DNA from: a virus
Virus record (IMG/VR): IMGVR_UViG_3300035698_011925
Coordinates: 1 to 39,335 of that record
Direction: 5' to 3' (one strand)
DNA length: 39,335 nt
Shown one piece after another: positions 2-39,335 of the stretch. Both the position numbers and the translations under genes were made by a program. The first letter of the stretch is position 1; every line of letters begins with the position of its first letter. Below the pieces are notes generated by a model, which searched no databases, was not told where the DNA came from, and saw only the letters and a list, made by a program, of their open reading frames with translations.

Positions 2-364
2 TATGATGATATTGTAGCTGAGGATGAATGGATAGAACCACAAAATTTTCACAAGTACAAAGGTAAATCAACAGCAGTAATCAGACAAGAATTATTAGAG
101 TTCATTGGACAACCTCTCGTAGAAGGTACAGAAATTCCTGAATTTTGGGCTTATTTCTGTAATTATGATTGGGTCGTATTCTGTTGGATATTTGGACACA
201 TGATAGATTTACCACGAGGATGGCCTATGTTCTGTAATGATTTGAAACCATTATTGAACGAATCAGGACTACCTCATCCAGGAGAACCAGAAGGAGTTCA
301 CAATGCTCTAGCAGATGCAGAGTGGAATGAAATGTTACATAAATATATATTGGAGAACATATAA
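2..364 (+). CDS. 3'-5' exonuclease, DnaQ-like (Rv2179c-type), 5' end outside window
   Basis: The visible 120 residues are the C-terminal part of a DnaQ-fold 3'-5' exonuclease. Seen: a YDWVVFCWIFG segment, then a LPRGWPMFCNDLK segment, and finally GVHNALADAEWN, which supplies the late His and Asp of the exonuclease active site. This arrangement matches the family of small stand-alone 3'-5' exoribonucleases typified by Rv2179c and found in many T4-like phages. It could trim RNA or proofread DNA; the latter is attractive because the polymerase at 21956 seems to lack a working exonuclease domain, but that link is inference. All tryptophans are TGG. It ends with TAA overlapping the next start (TAATG). 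Confidence 0.8.
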   Translation, partial: YDDIVAEDEWIEPQNFHKYKGKSTAVIRQELLEFIGQPLVEGTEIPEFWAYFCNYDWVVFCWIFGHMIDLPRGWPMFCNDLKPLLNESGLPHPGEPEGVHNALADAEWNEMLHKYILENI

Positions 365-18901: not shown

Positions 18902-21334
18902 ATGATTAATCTTGCTCCAATAGATTCAAAAATCAGAGCAGAGTTACACCGTAGGCAAAAAGTGCTGAACAGAGAAAAACCTCCTGTAAATGAAACGCAA
19001 ACAAGTGACGATTCAACTCCTAAAACAGAAATGAATAATATTTTTGTAAAATCAACATGGATGAGAATGTCTTCTTTTATTCAGCCGAAAGATGAACCAG
19101 CAGAAAGTTCTATTAAAACTAGAGTAATTAATGGCGGTTTGCTAAATGATGACCTTTCTTTGAAATACGGATTCGATGATATTTATACTTCCACTCAGAG
19201 TGGCGGAACCCAATTTAAACCGATGCCCGGTGTGACCAGCATAAATGTTGAATTTAAGGGAGCACTTGCATCCTTACGATCAGCAACAATTCAGTGGACT
19301 TGCTGAACACTTGATGATTTAGATTTATATGAACCAAATTTTTTAACAGTCGGCGCAAGTGTACTTTTAGAGTGAGGATACTCTTATGGTAAGACTAATA
19401 TTCCAGTGCTTACTGAGGCTGACTATAGCCTAGATAAAATATATCAAACAATACATAAAAAGGTGATTCAATCAAATGGCACGTATGACGGCCTTGTAGG
19501 CGTAGTTACAAATTTTGAATGGTCAGTGCGAGACGATGGTGGAGTTGATTGTACCACAACTTTAGTTTCAATGGGAATTGATATGTTAAAGCAACAACTA
19601 ATCCCAGAAAATACAACCAACATAGTTTATAACTCGGAAGCAAAAACAACCTCAGTTATACCTACATTTTCAGAATTTATTAAGGATCTTGATGATAAAC
19701 TAACACTCAAAACTCCAGACAAGCCTTCACAGAATACATGAAATAATAGCAATCAAAATATATATTTTTTAGGAGATGGAAAACCTCAATTGTATATGAC
19801 CTGGGGCTGAATAGAGGATAACATTATTAGCAGATTTTTAGGTAATGTCAACCGTGAAAATGAGATAATAAGTTATTTGCGAAGCATTGAGCCGTGGATA
19901 AATGATAAAGGTACACACTTGACAATTGGAGATATAAAAGGTGAGCTAGCGCAAGGTGACAGGAAAAACTTAAAGCCGGATACTGAATTGGCTTATAAAT
20001 CTATCACTATTTCAAATCATAAGGATTTAATATCGCCTAATTTTAAATTTTTCATTTTACCAGGTCAAGTTTCTAAAAATTCATCGGATATTACTAAACA
20101 TACAATTTTACGTGATGCAAAAAGGCTGACTGCTAGCAGGCCTTTTTCTGCGGGAAAATCAACTACCGTACGAGGGAAAGGATACATCAGGAATATATTA
20201 TTCAATTGGGAGTTTTTAATTTCAAATGTTTTTGATAACGCAAATAATATAGATTCTGCATTAACAAAATTATTTCAACTTATGAATGAAAATGTGGGAA
20301 TATGAAATTTAAAATTAATGGCCGCGCCTGAAAATAATGCACGGTTAAAAATAATAGATCAAAATATAGCAGAATATTCACTTAGAGATTTAATCAATAG
20401 TCCTAGTAAATTGGATACTAATAATTGGTCTACAGTTGAAGGGAAATTATTTGTATTTCCAGTTTGGGGTAAAAATAGTATAGTTCTATCACAACAATTA
20501 TCAGGTAAATTACCTTCAGCAATGGCGGTATCTGCGATGTATGCAAATAATAGTTCCAATTCAAGTCCGTCATTACAGGCTGAGGCACTGGCGAAATTGT
20601 CAAAACCAACAGATGATAAATTATTGTCTGAATTAACACGCGGCTACCAACATTCAAGATTTGGGTCGGACTCCGGCTCGCCAAATAGCCAATTCGGAGT
20701 AAACTCAGGGCCAGCATTGCCCGCATATGAATCTAAATCACCTGCAGAACCTGTAGAAACGGCTTCCTTATTTGATATATTAGACGAACAAACAAAAGAA
20801 ATTCAACTACGAGAAGACAGCGTTACTCAATGAAAAATTAACGAATGAAAAAAAGACAAGATCACAAAGTCAGTCTATAGCGTGTGCGGAACTTTAAAGA
20901 ATGGTAGCGGCCTTAAATATTTAGATGTGATGAAATATGTAATGAACGGTGATCCGATTGATTCTGTTAGGAATGACTCTGCACCTCTTATCCCGTTACA
21001 TTTGGACATAGAGTTAGAAGGTATAAGTGGAATTTATCCTGGAAACTGTTTTGCAAGTGATTATGTCCAAAAACGATATAAGGAAAAGGCATTGTTTCAA
21101 ATAATGGGCGCAGAGCATGAATTAGATTCAACCAACTGGAAAGTCACGTTAAACGGACAAATACGAGTTGATACAACTCCTGACACTCCTCCTCCAAAAC
21201 CACCCGCAGATATTGAAGAAACTACCAACGCAGATGAATCTCCATTAACACCTGGCACAGATGATTCTCAATTTGATTTAAAAATTGGGGTCGAACGCAA
21301 AGACTTGAAAATGAATACCACTACTGGAGGATAA
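18902..21334 (+). CDS. baseplate hub protein, 810 aa, seven TGA (Trp)
   Basis: One frame from ATG 18902 to TAA 21332 with TGA at 19304, 19373, 19739, 19808, 20303, 20831 and 20846. This is the richest TGA user in the window, against about nine TGG. The N-terminal part has GVTSINVEFKGALASLRSAT, and the C-terminal part carries PLIPLHLDIELEGISGIYPG, then FQIMGAEHELDSTNWKVTLN. That Gly-Ile-x-Pro-Gly with the late NWKV strand is typical of tail hub proteins (gp27 type) that sit under the tube. A Pro-rich linker (PDTPPPKPPADIEETTNADE) ends the protein. The hub assignment is moderately sure. Confidence 0.68.
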
Positions 21335-21955: not shown

Positions 21956-23251
21956 ATGGTTATAGTGGAAACACCAAAACAATTTGAGATATTCAAAAAG
22001 TGCGCATTTGAGCATGATTGGATAATTGTACCTATTTTATCAGATACCAAAATACACCCTATTATCAATTCATTATGTGGATTATATATTAGAATCATAG
22101 ATGGTGATGATTATTTACTTCCGTTCACCCACACCGAATCATTGAACCTATCATTAGATTATCTGAATGAATTGAACATTGATAATACTAAATATATTTT
22201 TGATAAAAAGGAGATGATTCATATCTTCAATTTTAAAAATATGGTCGATGTTAATTTATTGCACTACATGAGAACAAATCATGCGCTAGAAATTGACCAT
22301 CTAACAACACCGTCACATCAATTTTTCCATGTCAAGTATTATAAACTGAAAAACGTCAACCGGGTAATCCCGCTTATAAAACACCTTGAATATTGTCGAT
22401 TATTAGCAAGTGAGATGGAACGCTTCATTGATATGACATTTTACAATAAATTGTACAATAATGAAATTATACAAAATTTAGTGAACATGGAAGCTCCTGG
22501 GTTATATACAACAGATGGAGTGCTGTATAGCAATTATAATATGTTTACGGTAACCGGACGAGCCTCAAACAGGTACGGTGGAGTTAATTTTTCAGCACTG
22601 AATAAAAAGGACGAAACTCGTAACAAATACGTTTCAAGATTTGAAAACGGATATTTAGTAGATTTTGATTATAGTGCAAATCATTTAAAAATTATAGCCG
22701 GTTTAGTTGATTATACGTTTCCAGAATCACCGCATGAATATTTGGGTAAAATGTACTTTGAAACCGAAAAATTGACACCGGAACAATATTCAGAGTCTAA
22801 AACTCTGTCATTTAAATTATTATACGGCGGAATTCCGGAAGACCTTGAAAAAATAGAGTTTTTTAGAAAAGTCAATATGTATATACGAAAACTGTGGAAG
22901 ACGTACAAGAAACAAGGTTATATTGAATCACCTCTTACTAAAAAACGATTATATGCTGAAAACTTAGGAAAAATGAGTTCTCAAAAATTATTTAATTATT
23001 TATTACAGTTAGTTGAATTTGAGGAAATGCAACCTATATTCTTACAAATAAACGAATACCTAGATAATAAAAAATCAAAATTTATATTATATTTGTATGA
23101 TTCGATGCTATTTGATTTCAATAGTGATGATACGACTGAAATTCTTTTTGATTTGAAGGCGATATTAGAATTTGGAAACAAAGATGTAACTGCAAAGATG
23201 GGTAAAAATTACGGAGAGATGAAAAATATTGATAATTATTTTTATCAATAG
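21956..23251 (+). CDS. family A DNA polymerase, polymerase domain only
   Basis: 431 residues, ATG 21956 behind AAAGG. Pol A motifs: motif A is DFDYSANHLKIIAGL near residue 236, with the metal-binding Asp kept but His where Pol I has the steric-gate Glu. Motif B is SKTLSFKLLYGG near residue 282, keeping the Lys, Phe and Tyr of the O helix. Motif C is LYLYDSMLFDF near residue 380, with YDS in place of HDE. FTVTGRASNRYGGVNFSAL before motif A is the Pol A TGR segment. The N-terminal 150 residues look like a degenerate exonuclease domain without catalytic acids (inference). T4 uses family B gp43, so this is a replacement. Both Trp are TGG. Confidence 0.85.
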   Translation: MVIVETPKQFEIFKKCAFEHDWIIVPILSDTKIHPIINSLCGLYIRIIDGDDYLLPFTHTESLNLSLDYLNELNIDNTKYIFDKKEMIHIFNFKNMVDVNLLHYMRTNHALEIDHLTTPSHQFFHVKYYKLKNVNRVIPLIKHLEYCRLLASEMERFIDMTFYNKLYNNEIIQNLVNMEAPGLYTTDGVLYSNYNMFTVTGRASNRYGGVNFSALNKKDETRNKYVSRFENGYLVDFDYSANHLKIIAGLVDYTFPESPHEYLGKMYFETEKLTPEQYSESKTLSFKLLYGGIPEDLEKIEFFRKVNMYIRKLWKTYKKQGYIESPLTKKRLYAENLGKMSSQKLFNYLLQLVEFEEMQPIFLQINEYLDNKKSKFILYLYDSMLFDFNSDDTTEILFDLKAILEFGNKDVTAKMGKNYGEMKNIDNYFYQ

Positions 23252-24190: not shown

Positions 24191-24757
24191 ATGATAAATT
24201 ATGAATATATAAACGATTCAATAAAGTACTATGAGCAGTGCGGTTTTGAACGTATAGAAGTGCCATGGACTGTTTCTGAGTATGTTAGTGGCATAACACG
24301 ACCTCCAGGCGTTGACCCGCATCAACTACGAAACGGAGAATGTTTAGTTGCATCAGGTGAACAATCGTTCCTTGATTTGTATCTCAAAAAACATCTTCCA
24401 TTAGGACAATTTCAAGCGGTAACGCCATGTTTCAGGCCTGATACAATTGATGCCTTGCATTGTGAACATTTCATGAAAAATGAATTGATAAAAACGGATG
24501 TGGTAACTAAGGAAGCACTCGCCGAATTGGTGCATCATGCTCACCAATTTTTTATGAAATATTTTGAAAGAGTTGATTGGGAAGAAACTGATGATGGATT
24601 TGACTTGACATATGGTGGCTCCGAACGTAAAGATGGCGGTTACGAACTTGGCAGTTATGGAATCAGAAAATCAGAATTTTTAACATGGATATATGGTACA
24701 GGGTGTGCTGAGCCAAGATTATCACGAATATTGGAGATTAAAAATGGGTTATCATAA
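24191..24757 (+). CDS. class II aminoacyl-tRNA synthetase-like core protein, 188 aa
   Basis: ATG 24191 behind GAGGAGG. The sequence has class II synthetase marks. GEQSFLDLYLKKHLPLGQFQ leads to TPCFRPDT (residues 78-85), which matches motif 2 (an Arg followed by an acid). YGTGCAEPRLSR (168-179) matches motif 3, with its Arg in a Gly-rich turn. ELGSYGIR lies just before. There is no anticodon-binding domain and the protein is far smaller than real synthetases, so it may be an amino-acid ligase or tRNA-modifying paralogue. Trp synthetase is class I, so it does not explain the TGA code. All three Trp are TGG. Confidence 0.65.
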   Translation: MINYEYINDSIKYYEQCGFERIEVPWTVSEYVSGITRPPGVDPHQLRNGECLVASGEQSFLDLYLKKHLPLGQFQAVTPCFRPDTIDALHCEHFMKNELIKTDVVTKEALAELVHHAHQFFMKYFERVDWEETDDGFDLTYGGSERKDGGYELGSYGIRKSEFLTWIYGTGCAEPRLSRILEIKNGLS

Positions 24758-31260: not shown

Positions 31261-32034
31261 ATGTCTAAAGTCGATTTCAGCGCGTTGCGCAAAAAGCTAA
31301 ACCATCTAAACACCGAATCAAACAAAACCACAAGTCTGTGAAAACCAACACCAGGTGAAACAATTATAAGGATTGTTCCTTATAAATATGTTCCTGAAAA
31401 TCCTTTCATTGAACTACAGTTTCATTACGGTATCGGTGGAAAAACCTTTCTATCACCATTATCTTTTAAACGTCCAGACCCAATTGAGGAGTTTGCTCAA
31501 AAACTTCGTCAAAACGGTGACAAGGATTCGTACCAAATGTCCAAGACTCTTGAGGCAAAAATGCGTACTTTCCTTCCAATTGTTGTACGTGGCGAAGAAA
31601 ACTCCGGAGTTAAATTTTGGGGTTTTGGAAAACTAGTCTACCAGGAATTGTTAGAATTTTATGGTGACGCGGATTACGGAGATATTTCAGATCCGTTGAC
31701 CGGAAGAGATGTTGTTGTAAAATTCATCCCTAAGGAAGAATCCGGTTCTAACTTCCCTAAAACACGAATCAAAATTAAGCCTTTACAAACACCGCTTTCT
31801 GAGAATAAAGCTCAGTTAGATGCGTTGCTTAATAACCAAAAAGACATCAAAGAAGTCTATCAGGAATTATCATATGAGGAACTGCGCACTGCGTTGGAAA
31901 CATATTTGAACCCTGATGAAGATGATACTGATGGTGGTAGTGATTCCGCAGAACCAACTGCAACTACAACACAAGAAGCGATTACTTCTAAAGCCGCAAC
32001 GTCTGATGACTTCGCCGCTTTATTTGATAAATAA
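31261..32034 (+). CDS. 32: single-stranded DNA-binding protein, gp32-like, one TGA (Trp)
   Basis: ATG 31261 behind AGGAGA. 257 residues. The N-terminus MSKVDFSALRKKLNHLN is the gp32 homotypic-interaction helix. TGA at 31339 is Trp in TSL-W-KPTPGETIIRIVPYKY, the conserved opening of the OB-fold core. FHYGIGGKTFLSPLSFKRPD, FLPIVVRGEENSGVKFWGFG and SDPLTGRDVVVKFI follow. The C-terminal 50 residues are acidic (NPDEDDTDGGSDSAEPT) and end in FAALFDK, the site that recruits partners. The T4 zinc ligands are not visible. It coats single-stranded DNA during replication and recombination. Confidence 0.9.
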
Positions 32035-32087: not shown

Positions 32088-33206
32088 ATGACAAAAGAAA
32101 AAACCATGGATAGAGAGGAATTTCTAGCGTCTTCGGTTGCTGATTCCCTAAATTCCAAAGATAAAGGTATGAAAGTTGCATATTTTTTAGGAGATGAATT
32201 TAATGATTCTCCGTCAAATATTAGTGACTGAATTTCTACCGGTTCGAGCATCCTAGATTTACGTATCTCAAACAGACCTCACGGTGGAATACCTGTCGGT
32301 CGAATATGTGAATTTACAGGACTTGAATCATCAGGTAAAAGTCTTATCGGTGCCCACATACTTGCAAACACTCAAAAGAAAGATGGAATAGCAGTTTACA
32401 TTGATACTGAATCTGCTGTAAGTCCTGAATTTTTGTCTGCGATCGGTGTGGATATTGACAAGATGATTTATATTCCCGAGGAAACGGTTGAAGATATATT
32501 TGAAACAATTGAAACAATTATTTCAAAGGTACGGGAAGGCTCAAGCACCAGGCTTGTAACTATTTTAGTTGACAGTCTTGCAGGAGCATCTACGAAAGTA
32601 GAAATGGATGCTGATTATGATAAGGACGGTTGGGCAACATCAAAGGCAATTATTTTGTCTAAGGCAATGCGTAAGATCACAAATTTAATCAGCAAAGAAA
32701 ATATCGCAATCGTTTTCACAAATCAGTTACGAGTTAAATTGGGAGCTATGTTCGGAGATAAATATACAACATCAGGTGGAAAAGCAGTAGGCTTTCATTC
32801 ATCCGTTCGAGTACGCTTATCAAATTTAGGACAGATTAAAGATTCCACAAAAACAATAATTGGTATGAAAACCAAGTGTAAGGTTACTAAGAATAGAATG
32901 GGACCACCATCAAGGATAGCTGAGTTTCATTTGTATTTTGATTCTGGTATAGATGATTATGCAAGTTGGCTAGTGACTCTAAAAGAGTACAAATTGATTA
33001 AATCAGGTGGTGCTTGGATGACCGTTGATTTTAACGGCGAGGACATCAAATTTCAAGCGAAAGACTTTCGAGAGAAACTTGAAGTTCATCCTGGATTAGA
33101 GGAATTTCTATACGGTAAACTCTGTGATGCTTTGATTATGGAATATAAACAAGATGTTGTCCATGATGAAAGTGAACTTGAGATAGGGGAACCCGAAGAA
33201 GAATAA
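32088..33206 (+). CDS. uvsX: RecA/UvsX-like recombinase, one TGA (Trp)
   Basis: ATG 32088 with TTGGAG upstream, 372 residues. TGA at 32229 is Trp in SNISD-W-ISTGSSILDLRIS. The Walker A is GLESSGKSL (near residues 78-86). YIDTESAVSPEFL and TILVDSLAGASTK (Walker B region) follow, then VFTNQLRVKLGAMFGDKYTT and SGGKAVGFHSSVRVRLS, the RecA-fold L2-type stretch. The C-terminal end is acidic. It pairs and exchanges DNA strands with gp32 and supports recombination-dependent replication as in T4. Three other Trp are TGG. It ends with TAA. Confidence 0.9.
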
Positions 33207-33328: not shown

Positions 33329-33354
33329 CTGTTCGTTTGTCTAGAAACGGACAG
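33329..33354 (+). promoter_or_regulatory. 10-bp hairpin directly before the 5'-nuclease start
   Basis: CTGTTCGTTT pairs with AAACGGACAG (one G-U pair) around a 6-base loop, three bases before ATG 33358. No free ribosome site exists apart from the stem, so it looks like a translational operator. Confidence 0.6.
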
Positions 33355-33357
33355 TTT

Positions 33358-34410
33358 ATGATTGACAAAGATATTTTCAAACGATTACTAAATGAAATTG
33401 AACAAGACCATGAAAATCTAAAATCAGAAGTACCGAACAGTAAGGTTTTGTTGATAGACGGACTAAACACCTTTATCAGAGCCTTTGCTGTATCACCGGT
33501 TACAAATGTTGACGGAGTTCATGTAGGCGGAGTTATAGGATTTTTACGTTCTATTGGATATGCAATTGAAACGCTTCAGCCAACACGGGTTATAATCACA
33601 TTTGACGGAAAAGGTGGATCTTCCCGTAGACGAAAGTTATATCCCGAATATAAGGCAAATCGTAAAATCGCTTCCAAGTTAAATAGGACAGATGCCTATA
33701 GTTCACCGGCAGATGAGCGACAATCAATGGAAGTTCAAATTCAAAGATTATTTCAGTATTTACAGTATTTACCTGTTTCAATTGCCATGATTGAAAATAT
33801 CGAGGCTGATGATTCAATGGCTTATATTACCAAACAACTTTTAACAGATAGTCAAGTAATTATAATGAGTACTGACAAAGATTTTATACAATTAGTGAGC
33901 GACCGAATTTCAGTTTGGTCTCCGACTAAAAAGGTTCTATACAATCCTCACACCGTTGTTAGGGATTATCAAATTCCTGCACACAACTTTCTCACATACA
34001 GAATATTAGAAGGCGACAAGTCTGATAATATCCCCGGAATTCGAGGAGCAGGATTAAAGACAATAGTTAAACGATTTCCTGATATTTTAACCGATGTTGA
34101 ATTTGGTATAGATAATTTGCTAGTTGAGGCAGAAAAAGGGAGTCTTTCGATACATGAGACTATACTTAATAGTAAGGAAACACTAAATTTAAATCATAAA
34201 TTAATGCAACTGGATGAAGTTGACATTAATGCTCGAGCGAAATCTACGCTAAGAGCGATAACTCACGGTGACATTTCACCACTAAATAAATTTCAATTTG
34301 AACAAATGTTTTTTAAAGATCAGTTACATCAAAATATTCCGAACGTAGAAACTTGGATTCACCGAGTATTTTCAAAGTTGGATAAATTTGCGAAAGAGCA
34401 TAATGGGTAG
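33358..34410 (+). CDS. 5'-3' exonuclease / RNase H (Pol I 5'-nuclease domain type)
   Basis: I choose ATG 33358; the open frame reaches up to a TTG at 33337, which lies within the hairpin. 350 residues. Family motifs: VLLIDGLNTFIRAFA with the first catalytic Asp; IITFDGKGGSSRRRKLYPEY and KANR; MIENIEADDSMAYITKQL with the metal-binding acids; MSTDKDFIQLVSD; and ILEGDKSDNIPGIRGAGLKT, the helix-hairpin-helix. It matches T4 RNase H, which removes primers and flaps. Here the Pol A domains exist as separate proteins. Both Trp are TGG. It ends with TAG inside the next gene. Confidence 0.9.
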   Translation: MIDKDIFKRLLNEIEQDHENLKSEVPNSKVLLIDGLNTFIRAFAVSPVTNVDGVHVGGVIGFLRSIGYAIETLQPTRVIITFDGKGGSSRRRKLYPEYKANRKIASKLNRTDAYSSPADERQSMEVQIQRLFQYLQYLPVSIAMIENIEADDSMAYITKQLLTDSQVIIMSTDKDFIQLVSDRISVWSPTKKVLYNPHTVVRDYQIPAHNFLTYRILEGDKSDNIPGIRGAGLKTIVKRFPDILTDVEFGIDNLLVEAEKGSLSIHETILNSKETLNLNHKLMQLDEVDINARAKSTLRAITHGDISPLNKFQFEQMFFKDQLHQNIPNVETWIHRVFSKLDKFAKEHNG

Positions 34411-34585
34411 AAAAAAGAAGTATAATTCAATAGAGGAAAAACGAGAGGCACAACGAACGTGGCAATCAGAACACTATGAGCGAAATCGTAAAGAAATTTT
34501 ACGAAAAGCACGAGAATTATACAAGCGCAAAAAAATTGAAAAAGATAAGCAGGAACGGAGCAGAAAGTTATACGATGAAAGTTAA
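34403..34585 (+). CDS. small basic protein, 60 aa
   Basis: ATG 34403, overlapping the end of the nuclease gene. Product MGRKKKYNSIEEKREAQRTW, then QSEHYERNRKEILRKARELY and KRKKIEKDKQERSRKLYDES: very basic and helical, likely nucleic-acid binding. One TGG Trp. It ends with TAA and overlaps the helicase start by 11 bases. No family is recognised. Confidence 0.6.
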   Translation: MGRKKKYNSIEEKREAQRTWQSEHYERNRKEILRKARELYKRKKIEKDKQERSRKLYDES

Positions 34586-36230
34586 TCACGAAGCTGTAAT
34601 TTTACAGAGTTTTGGAAAATATGCCATGACTCCTCGAGACAATCAATTGGACTTGATCAGTCAGATTTTAGATGCATATTTAACTGACAAGAAAAAGCAC
34701 GTAGTATTATCAGCACCCACAGGAACTGGTAAATCAATTATTGCTGTCATTGTAGCTGACTGTATGGCAGTCCTTCAACAGAAAGAACGAGCGTCCTCAT
34801 ATATCTTGATGCACACCAATACTTTAACCGAGCAATATAGAAATTCATTTTCTCAGTATGGTAACAGATTTGCTACCGTCATGGGTGCAAGTAATTATGG
34901 ATGTAGCGTGTTGAAGGATACCGCAGATAATTGCATTTATCAGGAACTTAAAGGACCCAAAAAATTAATGTGTAATTCATGTGATTATCATGATCTAAAT
35001 TCTAGGAAATTTAAGTCTGAGCATTTCATTACGAATTATTCATATTATTTCATATCTTGTATGTATAACCAAGGATTTCAAGAAAGACAGATTGCTATAT
35101 TTGATGAAGCACATTTAATAAATGAGGTATTTAGTTCACATTTATCAATTACCATTTCAATGAAAAATAATAAGTATTTGATTGCGAGAATGCAACGCTA
35201 TCAAACTTCTGGTTATGTTCGATTTGTAGATGTTCTGACAAAAGTTTCTGAGGCTATAATGTCTGAAAAAGTGAAAATGTCAAATCACGGATCATTTTTA
35301 TTGAATATGAAGGATTTATACAAAGAGATAGAACGAGAATATGCGCATCAGGCTCGGCATTATCGAGACAACGGAAACTATGATGCATTTACTTCATATA
35401 ATAAAATTGCTAAAATGGTAGGCGGCCTATTTGCTAAAATTCAAGAATTAGAAATATCCAATTATGAGCATGTAGTGGACATTCAAGCTACTGCCGTTGT
35501 TGTGTCGCCCATATTTGTCGGTGATATGTTCAAGAAAATTAATAAGGCAGATTATCATTTGTTTATGTCTGCAACAGTGGATGCAAATTTTATTTCAAAT
35601 ACGTTGAAAATTAATAAGAATGATATAACTTACATTAAATCTCCGCCAGTGTTTAAGGCTGAAAATAAGACTTTGGTGTTAGTAAATCATGATAATTACA
35701 ATTATTCAAAATTACAAGACAAATCAAATTTGGTAAAAATTGCAAATGTGATTCAAGAAATCTTAAAAGAGAATGAAAAGAAAAATGGCATCATATTAAC
35801 GCCGTCATATTACATCAATGAATTTATGGCAACGATGATAAGAACACGAACAAAAACAAATTTGATAGAACATGAGCGAGGCACTAAATTACTAGATTCC
35901 CTAAGTCAACATAAACAAGATGCAAGGCCGTCTGTTTTAATATCGCCTTCATTGTTTGAAGGTATTGATTTACCAAACGAACAATCCAGATTTCAAATAT
36001 TCGTAAAGGCGCCTTACCCATCATTGGCAGATAAAAGAATAAAATACATTTTTGAACGATACCCTGATATATATGAAACAATGACGGTATATAAAATTAT
36101 ACAGGGATTGGGTAGATCAACCAGGAATAATACTGATTATTCTATCACGTATGCACTGGATAGGAACATATCACGTTTGTTTCACAGTCCGAAAAATAAG
36201 TGAAAAAATGAATTTAAGGTCATTAAATAG
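34575..36230 (+). CDS. XPD/DinG-like superfamily 2 helicase with Fe-S-type cysteines
   Basis: I choose ATG 34575, because an upstream in-frame ATG at 34476 lies deep inside the previous gene. 551 residues. Walker A APTGTGKS near 47, a Cys set (GCSV, NCIY, MCNSC near 110-135) like the iron-sulfur cluster of XPD/DinG, DEAH box FDEAHLI near 177, then motifs V/VI (ISPSLFEGIDLPNEQSRFQI, KIIQGLGRSTRNNTDY). TGA at 36201 is read as Trp in SPKNK-W-KNEFKVIK, an end that fits this family, with TAG at 36228. It would unwind DNA 5' to 3'. T4 Dda and UvsW are other families, so this is an extra helicase. Confidence 0.85.
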
Positions 36231-36270: not shown

Positions 36271-36669
36271 ATGAAATTACAAAGGTATGGAATGCACGGT
36301 GTTAGTGATATGTGGGGTGGCACCGATGAAAAAGAATTTGGTAAATATGGCGGTGGAGCATACGTTAAATTTAAAGATGTTATGGAGTTGTTAGAAAGTC
36401 CTGAGACAGTTGAAAAATTATCAGATTTAGAACATCAGCAATGGGAAGACTGGAGCAAGTCAATAGCCAAACTACTCGAGGAGGCACTCGATTTTACATG
36501 GGACGGCGAAGGTAATCCAGACGAACTTTCAAAAAAGATCAGAGCAAAATTAGATAATTGGAAATCCTACTGGGTTCCATATTCAGAATTAACAGACGAA
36601 ATCCAAGAGTATGACCGAGAATATGCTCGTAAAATCATAGAAGTTTTAAAGGAAAATAATGACAGATAA
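36271..36669 (+). CDS. conserved phage hypothetical protein, 132 aa
   Basis: I choose ATG 36271, behind AAAGGAGA; the open frame upstream overlaps the helicase gene. Product MKLQRYGMHGVSDMWGGTDE, with LEHQQWEDWSKSIAKLLEEA, NWKSYWVPYSELTDEIQEYD and REYARKIIEVLK. The HQQW and PYSELTDEI-x-EYDRE words recall the RyR-like domain seen in some phage proteins (weak). All six Trp are TGG. It ends with TAA, overlapping the next gene by 11 bases. Confidence 0.7.
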   Translation: MKLQRYGMHGVSDMWGGTDEKEFGKYGGGAYVKFKDVMELLESPETVEKLSDLEHQQWEDWSKSIAKLLEEALDFTWDGEGNPDELSKKIRAKLDNWKSYWVPYSELTDEIQEYDREYARKIIEVLKENNDR

Positions 36670-38032
36670 TTTATCAGGGTTTGGCAACAGTTTCCAAACT
36701 AAAGTTGTAGCGTCTCTATTAAAAGATACCCAATTTATTCAGCAGATAGGCGATATCCTCCAACCTGAAATGTTCGATAGTGAAGGTAATAAGTGGCTAG
36801 TCGAGCATATCTCAAAATACTTTTTCAAGTATAAAACGATTCCTACACTCGTAACATTGAAGTATGAAATTGATGAAATTGATAATGATATTTTGCAGGT
36901 TGATGTTACTGAAAAATTGAAACATTCATGGGCACAATTAGAGGCAACCGATTTAACATTTGTACAGGAAAAAATACTTGAATTTTGTAAAAATCAGGTG
37001 TTAAAAACTGCAATCATTGATTCAGTTGATTTATTAGAATCCGGAGATTATGATGGAATAAAGGGATTAGTCGATGAGGCTATGAAAGCCGGAGCTCCGA
37101 GAGATTTGGGACATGATTATATTACAGGTTTAAAAGAACGATTGACAAGCATCACTCGGGCAACAATATCCACTCCTTGGAATCCATTATCAGAAATAAT
37201 GGATGGCGGTCTAGCCGGCGGAGAATTAGGTGTTGTAGTTGCACCGGCAGGAATCGGTAAGTCTTGGATTCTACAAGCAATCGCGGCAGGTGCAGTTAAG
37301 GCAGGTCTGAAAGTCGTTTACTATACTATGGAATTGAACGAACAATATGTCGGTACACGGTTTGACACCATTTTCAGTAAAGTGCCAACGGCAAATATTA
37401 AGTACCATCAAGACGAAATTGAAAAAGTTCTAGGTGGATTAAACGGTGAAATGATTATCAAATATTTTCCACAAGGTAGTGTTGGTGTATCATCTTTGAT
37501 GGCACATATGAAACAAATGGAATTACAGCAAATTGAGCCTGACCTTGTGGTCGTAGATTATGCAGATTTACTGAGAGATACCTCGGGACAAAAAGATTTA
37601 AGATTTCAGTTAAGGCGAATTTATGAAGATTTACGTGGAATGGCAGGAGAACTTAATGTACCAGTTTGGACTGCATCACAAGCATCAAGATCAGCTCTTG
37701 AAGAGGATATTATTGAGGCAGGCAAGATCGCTGAAGATTATTCAAAAATTATGACTGCTGATTTTGTAATGTCAATCAGTCGAAAAGTTGAAGACAAAAT
37801 TGCAGATACTGGACGATGTCATATTATTAAAAATAGATTCGGCAGAGACGGAATAACGCTACCAATGAAAATACGAACTGATACCGGTACGTTTGAAATG
37901 TACGAGGAATTATCACAAAACGGTCAAGAACAACAGACTAAAATGGATAATCACAAGGAATACGGAAAGCAAATGTTGGCAAAGAAATATAAATTATTGA
38001 TGACTGATGACAACAAAGAGGGATTTGAATAA
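36659..38032 (+). CDS. 41: replicative DNA helicase, gp41/DnaB-like
   Basis: 457 residues, ATG 36659 behind AAGGAAAA. The N-terminal domain has QTKVVASLLKDTQFIQQIGD and FKYKTIPTLVTLKYEID. The RecA-like ATPase has LAGGELGVVVAPAGIGKSWI with Walker A (residues 195-202), VVYYTMELNEQYVGTRFDTI with the DnaB-type Glu, VVVDYADLLRD (Walker B) and PVWTASQASRSALEEDIIEA. It forms a hexamer that unwinds DNA at the fork and works with a primase, which is not in the window. All five Trp are TGG. It ends with TAA in a TAATG overlap. Confidence 0.92.
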   Translation: MTDNLSGFGNSFQTKVVASLLKDTQFIQQIGDILQPEMFDSEGNKWLVEHISKYFFKYKTIPTLVTLKYEIDEIDNDILQVDVTEKLKHSWAQLEATDLTFVQEKILEFCKNQVLKTAIIDSVDLLESGDYDGIKGLVDEAMKAGAPRDLGHDYITGLKERLTSITRATISTPWNPLSEIMDGGLAGGELGVVVAPAGIGKSWILQAIAAGAVKAGLKVVYYTMELNEQYVGTRFDTIFSKVPTANIKYHQDEIEKVLGGLNGEMIIKYFPQGSVGVSSLMAHMKQMELQQIEPDLVVVDYADLLRDTSGQKDLRFQLRRIYEDLRGMAGELNVPVWTASQASRSALEEDIIEAGKIAEDYSKIMTADFVMSISRKVEDKIADTGRCHIIKNRFGRDGITLPMKIRTDTGTFEMYEELSQNGQEQQTKMDNHKEYGKQMLAKKYKLLMTDDNKEGFE

Positions 38033-38518: not shown

Positions 38519-39335
38519 ATGTTTAATTTATCAGATACTTTCATAAATAGTTACAAAAGAAAAAGAGCTCCGTTTGGATTTAACGGACTCGGAGCACTCG
38601 TGTATATGAGAACATATTCCCGTATTAAAGAGGATGGCTCAAACGAACAATGGTGAGAAACCGTTCAGCGGGTAGTTGAAGGCACGTACAACATGCAGAA
38701 ACAGCATATCGAAACTCATGGTCTTGGGTGGCATCAATGGAGAGCTACACGCTCTGCCAAAGAGATGTATGACCGTATGTTTAACATGAAATTCCTACCC
38801 CCTGGTAGAGGACTATGGGCCATGGGCTCTGTCCTCACCGAAGAGAAAGGTATCTTCGCTGCACTGAACAACTGTTTTAGTTATGATACTAAAATAATTA
38901 CAAATGATGGTTTACAGAAAATAGGTGATTGTTCTGGAACACATCAAAGTATTCTTACTAAAAATGGTAAGTGGGTTGAGGCACCAATTAAGTGCTTTGG
39001 GACACAAAAACTAAGTAAGTTAGTTTTATCACGTCAGGGTATTGAAAAAGTAATTTACGTTACACCTGACCATGAGTGGTTCGCAAAGAGTCCGTCAGAA
39101 GTAAGTCATAGTAAAGGATATAATACTTACAAAACGACAGACCTAAAACCAAAATATAGATTACAATATATATTTGGCTAAGGAATTAAAGATATAAGAC
39201 CCTCACCATTTGGAATAGCACACGGTATATCATTTGGTGATGGCACTGGAAGTCACTTATACTTATGCGGTGAAAAAGATAGACAATTAGAAAAATGGTT
39301 TCCACTTAATAGTAAATCAAGAGATGAAAATAAAT
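38519..39335 (+). CDS. nrdJ: class II ribonucleotide reductase N-terminus, split by an intein, TAA inside, runs off window
   Basis: ATG 38519, with GAGGAG upstream. The N-extein (MFNLSDTFINSYKRKRAPFG, later FLPPGRGLWAMGS and AALNN) looks like adenosylcobalamin-dependent ribonucleotide reductase, whose LPPGRGLWAMG word is typical. TGA at 38654 is Trp (EQW-W-ETV). After Asn118 the intein starts at Cys119. An in-frame TAA at 39179 interrupts the intein, yet the same frame continues with good intein endonuclease sequence to the window end. If this TAA is real, no functional enzyme is made unless it is read through. The enzyme would make deoxynucleotides for replication. Confidence 0.75.
38873..39335 (+). 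other. intein with LAGLIDADG-type endonuclease domain (partial)
   Basis: Block A is CFSYDTKIITNDGLQKIGD from Cys119, a standard intein start after LNN. Block B is VTPDHEWF (T-x-x-H). After the TAA at 39179 the frame reads IKDIRPSPFGIAHGISFGDG, TGSHLYLCGEKDRQLEKWFP, a LAGLIDADG/DOD endonuclease segment. The C-terminal splice site is outside the window. Confidence 0.82.

Follow-up and report, generated by a model that had tools for sequence, protein, structure and literature searches.

Gene content of the locus

The window, that is, the whole stretch of 39,335 bp analysed here, contains a short family A DNA polymerase (PolA) gene of the family named divPolA1, an open reading frame of 431 codons with an ATG start and a TAG end (Table 1). 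In the window and in its relatives the genes follow the order baseplate genes, divPolA1, often a long variable protein, a protein of about 135 residues, gp32, UvsX, 5'-nuclease and DnaB. The polymerase gene stands at the head of the module formed by the last four of these.

Table 1. Positions of genes, domains and motifs in the window
Feature	Position	Strand	Remarks
3' part of a DnaQ-fold exonuclease gene	2..364	+	Rv2179c-like by Pfam/PHROG matches; no piece of Pol I
Baseplate-region protein	18902..21331	+	Upstream of divPolA1; continuous only with TGA as sense codon
divPolA1, short family A DNA polymerase	21956..23251	+	431 aa; dead exonuclease domain and truncated thumb
Degenerate 3'-5' exonuclease domain	21956..22405	+	Residues ~1-150; from Pol I alignment and AlphaFold2 model
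Motif A region	22652..22696	+	DFDYSANHLKIIAG; catalytic D238, and His243 at the steric-gate Glu710 position, both 87/87
Motif B / O-helix	22787..22831	+	Y278...K282...F286...Y290-G291; K, F, Y and G 87/87, Y278 86/87
Motif C region	23084..23119	+	ILYLYDSMLFDF; catalytic D382; Tyr381 at the His881 and Ser383 at the Glu883 position
Acidic ORF, 108 aa	23275..23601	+	Downstream of divPolA1
Constant divPolA1 partner, ~135 aa	23724..24131	+	In-frame TGA read as conserved Trp
gp32-like single-strand DNA-binding protein	31270..32034	+	In-frame TGA
UvsX/RecA recombinase	32097..33206	+	In-frame TGA
5'-nuclease, FEN / T4 RNase H type	33337..34410	+	
DnaB/gp41-like replicative helicase	36656..38032	+	

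Identity of the polymerase

Profile searches and structure prediction were employed to identify the polymerase. The match to Pfam DNA_pol_A was barely above the cut-off (34.4 bits, with a cut-off of 34.3), and that to PHROG 17 'DNA polymerase' reached 7e-11. A single-protein phmmer search of the PDB with the window polymerase gave no match, whereas a profile built from seven relatives matched Klenow fragment structures with an E value of 8e-8. An AlphaFold2 model made from 57 aligned sequences was confident throughout (pLDDT 94.1, pTM 0.90). Using this model, Foldseek ranked Klenow first (1kfd, E 2e-20, TM 0.77; 1kfs, TM 0.80), with DNA polymerases leading the top 50 matches and RNA polymerases absent from them. 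The reading frame, the Pfam and PHROG matches, the Klenow profile match and the predicted fold agree with a preliminary description of the locus, which had recognised, in a T4-like genome, a free-standing enzyme of PolA type whose motifs are unusual.

Between close pairs of relatives dN/dS was 0.05-0.19, so that the frame is not a chance one. Judged from the aligned sequences, divPolA1 is a strongly constrained protein with a complete two-Asp site and not a decaying gene. The window has no match to phrog_262 or PF00136, the profiles of T4 gp43 (family B), so the protein does not count among the gp43 enzymes. A parallel had also been drawn to Rhodothermus phage RM378, a myovirus in which exonuclease and polymerase are encoded separately. 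This parallel was not borne out, as the RM378 pieces (22149-22853 and 80145-81146) match phrog_262 and are of family B, whereas the window protein is of family A, and the short PolA profile found no divPolA1 in RM378.

Active site, exonuclease domain and thumb

Residue equivalences were obtained by aligning the window protein to E. coli Pol I, and conservation was counted over 87 aligned members of the family. The shared Klenow fold is accompanied by retention of R202 (Arg668), D238 (Asp705), K282 (Lys758), F286 (Phe762), Y290-G291 (Tyr766-Gly767), Q351 (Gln849) and D382 (Asp882), all of them invariant in the 87 members. Five positions differ from Pol I, with Glu710 replaced by His243, Arg754 by Tyr278, His881 by Tyr381, Glu883 by Ser383 and Gln677 by Asn211. 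His243, Asn211 and Tyr381 are likewise invariant, together with Tyr379, Glu354 and Asn205, and Tyr278 is found in 86 of 87 members. Motif A reads DYSANHL, in which His occupies the place of the steric-gate Glu, as the preliminary description had stated; the change at Arg754 is a further one that it did not contain. The His and Tyr at these two positions probably change the hold on the sugar and triphosphate of the incoming nucleotide.

Motif C, reported earlier as an unusual YDS, is unusual in one of its residues. The change from His to Tyr is found in 87/87 members, as is the Asp that follows, while at residue 383 Ser occurs in 74 members and Ala in the other 13. Loss of Glu883 was considered as a special feature and rejected, since the ordinary phage PolA enzymes of Twort, EF24C, LfeInf, BM15 and CRP-3 read HDS. 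In the full-length PolA of phage immuto, motif C reads HDQ.

The protein had been described as a 431-residue Pol A core. It is a PolA, but its first ~150 residues form a degenerate exonuclease domain, so that it is more than a core; an N-terminal exonuclease remnant had in fact been suspected, and the domain is seen in both the Pol I alignment and the model. The exonuclease positions D355, E357 and D424 of Pol I read P, L and K in the window protein, and D501 falls in a gap. From Tyr146 to Asp238 there are 92 residues, compared with 208 between the equivalent Tyr497 and Asp705 of Pol I, which means that most of the thumb is gone; about 115 residues are missing before motif A. The earlier proposal that the domains of Pol I are split over three genes fails on these features, because divPolA1 carries a dead exonuclease domain of its own and lacks most of the thumb. 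The first ORF of the window, which had been taken as the exonuclease part, does have a DnaQ fold, but it matches Rv2179c-like and 'RNase H' families.

With Glu710, Arg754 and His881 all replaced, the predicted activity may prove weak or different in kind. The family-wide replacement of these three residues, the reduced thumb and the dead exonuclease would also suit a catalytically dead polymerase fold that the replisome retains as a subunit for structural or regulatory purposes. We regard this reading as improbable, since the invariance of both catalytic Asp residues and of the equivalents of Lys758, Tyr766, Gln849 and Arg668 in 87/87 members is not expected if catalysis has been lost.

Relation to known divPolA1 phages

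The divPolA1 family was described in 2024 (Yutin et al., Virol J 21:200, PMC11348598), with Flavobacterium phage vB_FspM_immuto as the type phage. According to that article, divPolA1 has a family A palm with its catalytic residues, an inactive 3'-5' exonuclease and a truncated thumb, and is present in addition to a regular polymerase. The window protein is a member of this family of phage PolA proteins with dead exonuclease and reduced thumb. It is 30% identical to immuto gp001 over 94% coverage (E 3e-58) and shares with the immuto protein the catalytic palm, the dead exonuclease, the thumb truncation and the downstream replication genes. No difference in kind was found between the two, the window member coming from a branch in which TGA is read as Trp. 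A genome of 155-190 kb is a further criterion for the family; the window contig has 39,335 bp. The name divPolA1 was found, in the literature searched, only in PMC11348598 and its preprint. What is already known is thus the family; the present analysis adds the fixed, altered active-site residues, the constant partner gene and the TGA-recoded branch. The word 'steric' does not occur in PMC11348598, and its accessible text names no partner gene.

Full-length relatives were found in 6 of 50,697 phage records, namely four immuto entries, Microcystis phage Mel-JY01 and the 484-kb LR756508. At least 589 loci in IMG/VR match divPolA1, compared with the 14 genomes listed in the article. Among 84,980 bacterial and archaeal species genomes there were matches on four contigs only, three of them in Bacteroidota MAGs, and this near absence from cellular genomes marks divPolA1 as a phage family. 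In a tree of the palm region, the short members all fall on one side of a branch with support 100/100, and the window protein pairs with that of locus L022. Descent from immuto's own full-length PolA received no support from this tree, in which that branch is too long to place. In Mel-JY01 (PP395634.1), the divPolA1 gene at 50397-51623 is annotated as 'hypothetical protein', and the gene at the 5'-nuclease position, 55792-56832, as 'DNA polymerase I'.

Barbaviruses and vibriophages likewise carry an additional, divergent PolA next to a regular PolB; it is called divPolA2 (AUR84708; PMC11348598). Unlike divPolA1, it has retained the steric-gate Glu, has FDE as its motif C and has no exonuclease domain, and the two show no clear similarity.

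TGA recoding

Proteins of relatives aligned to the window cross 26 in-frame stops, and all 26 are TGA. Examples lie at 2126, 2633, 4994, 5339, 10775, 12544, 18082, 19304, 19373, 20303, 24027 (partner gene), 31339 (gp32) and 32229 (UvsX); the codons are found in tail genes as well as in these three. Of the 25 sites with an aligned residue, 13 have Trp opposite the TGA, and the residues at the others are scattered. The nearest relatives (L022, L132, L133 and L134) have the same pattern; the other relatives sampled are without it and use the standard code. The contig evidently needs TGA to be read as Trp, and by these alignments belongs to a small recoded branch of divPolA1 phages, in which recoded codons occur within the replication-module genes themselves. 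The many short tail ORFs and the truncated RecA of the first ORF list arose because the contig had been read with table 11. Assembly frameshifts were considered as the source of the short ORFs and rejected, the breaks being in-frame TGA codons. The start and end of the divPolA1 frame are the same under either reading.

Gene neighbourhood and the constant partner

A region homologous to the baseplate-region protein lies upstream of divPolA1 in 49 of the 58 loci with at least 3 kb of upstream sequence. The acidic ORF that follows divPolA1 in the window resembles, in its N-terminal half, the start of a protein of 655-787 residues that often follows divPolA1 in relatives. The separate 5'-nuclease that the preliminary description had placed near 33358 is real. 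Between it and DnaB lies a DEAD/Helicase_C_2 helicase (phrog_2488, 34476-36203). It is present in only one of the 31 loci that extend at least 9 kb downstream, and its window ORF ends in TGA and may continue if recoded.

In the same 31 loci, the ~135-aa protein was found downstream of divPolA1 in every case, followed by gp32 (29), UvsX (28), the 5'-nuclease (27) and DnaB (26). The reverse test, starting from loci found with the partner profile and having at least 4 kb upstream, recovered divPolA1 in 30 of 30. Among the 50,697 phage records the partner occurs in exactly the six that hold divPolA1; a copy in a relative lies at L025:13240-13671. Searches of Pfam, PHROG and the PDB gave no convincing relative of this protein. 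Its model is confident (pLDDT 92), and the best structural match reached only E 0.056. The TGA-coded Trp of the window copy is an invariant Trp of the partner family. A physical partnership between divPolA1 and this protein is put forward only as a proposal, because shared descent of the gene block could explain part of the linkage. Between the partner gene and gp32, at 24191-24757, lies a fragment resembling histidyl-tRNA synthetase (phrog_4806, E 1e-37).

Main replicase of the divPolA1 phages

The divPolA1 enzyme is carried by marine T4-like phages besides a normal replicase. The three long reference genomes all hold another regular polymerase, which is a separate 778-aa PolA in immuto and a PolB in Mel-JY01 and LR756508. 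Using the T4 gp43 profile phrog_262, a gp43-type PolB was found on 11 IMG/VR contigs that also hold divPolA1. In every case it shares the strand of divPolA1 and lies about 10.8 to 23.6 kb downstream. A further five contigs, picked up by way of the partner gene, hold PolB as well. Three contigs longer than 50 kb are without PolB, and these end soon past divPolA1 (G006 after 377 bp, G030 within less than 7 kb and G032 after about 9 kb). The suggestion that the enzyme takes the place of gp43 is therefore contradicted by the three reference genomes and the 11 contigs.

No PolB was found in the window, which extends for 17.4 kb past the polymerase start. In this phage gp32 lies 9.3 kb downstream of divPolA1, and in L027 and L037, where the corresponding spacing is 9.5 and 9.3 kb, PolB follows at 21.8 and 17.5 kb. 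These spacings give strong grounds to expect a gp43 gene beyond the contig end. The preliminary description had named a gp43 gene outside the window as the finding that would tell against it; PolB is found in the relatives, and in this phage itself the gene is not seen directly because the contig ends first.

The lack of PolB within the window, together with the separate 5'-nuclease and DnaQ-fold genes, would fit a sole replicative polymerase with Pol I split over three genes. This is very improbable, because the reference genomes and the 11 contigs have another replicase, the window stops short of where PolB lies in the two relatives of matched spacing, divPolA1 has kept its own dead exonuclease domain, and a separate 5'-nuclease is normal for T4-like phages.

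Proposed role

In the reading we consider likely, divPolA1 serves a T4-like phage as a second family A or accessory DNA polymerase beside a main replicase, most likely a gp43-type PolB, that is encoded just past the right contig end. The enzyme would be catalytically active, of low processivity and without proofreading, and may carry out short-patch synthesis, for instance by extending primers, by filling the gaps that the neighbouring 5'-nuclease leaves or by acting at recombination intermediates. The ~135-aa protein probably acts together with it. As the His and Tyr are fixed in the family, it is plausible that the sugar or triphosphate of the incoming nucleotide is handled in an altered way. 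Location in the replication module does not tell which of the steps is served. According to PMC11348598, the main replicase differs among divPolA1 phages, being of family A, B or C. That divPolA1 is retained throughout suggests a core job.

That the enzyme deals with damaged phage DNA, as a translesion or repair polymerase, is a possible though unlikely alternative. Such a role would agree with the missing proofreading, the reduced thumb, the accessory status beside a main polymerase and the presence of UvsX in the same module; however, across a large group of phages divPolA1 is a fixed component of the core replication module instead of occurring sporadically, and no lesion-specific feature was seen in it.

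The invariant loss of the steric-gate Glu, the loss of Arg754 and the position in a helicase/SSB module could also point to a ribonucleotide-tolerant or RNA-synthesising PolA derivative, a primer maker or extender comparable with the single-subunit RNA polymerases of the same fold descent. We find this decidedly doubtful. The His is not small like the Gly of T7 RNA polymerase, and the top fold matches are DNA polymerases, with no RNA polymerase in the top 50. Each of the three long reference genomes (immuto, Mel-JY01 and LR756508) has a primase of the gp61/DnaG type (phrog_47), so that none is missing and a primase role for divPolA1 is not needed; replacement of the primase as a necessity was rejected on the same grounds.

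A further reading is that divPolA1 and the ~135-aa protein make up an obligate two-protein module, in which the His and Tyr alter sugar or triphosphate selection and which extends or makes mixed RNA-DNA primers, as a phage counterpart of Pol-alpha that passes synthesis on to the replicase of the phage, be it of family A, B or C. This must be called distinctly improbable and speculative. Given the invariant changes at the steric-gate and Arg754 positions and the constantly linked partner, what was loosely an 'extra polymerase' becomes a defined pair of proteins that can be purified.

In LR756508.1 the gp43-type PolB (259363-267278) is split into two long ORFs (1022 and 625 aa). Its conserved blocks are separated by additional sequence, possibly an intein or an inserted endonuclease. 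Near the right end of the window, at 38693-39181, the start of an adenosylcobalamin-type ribonucleotide reductase (PF17975) runs into an intein-like N-terminal sequence (NCFSYDTKIITNDGLQKIGD...), which is followed by a TAA stop.
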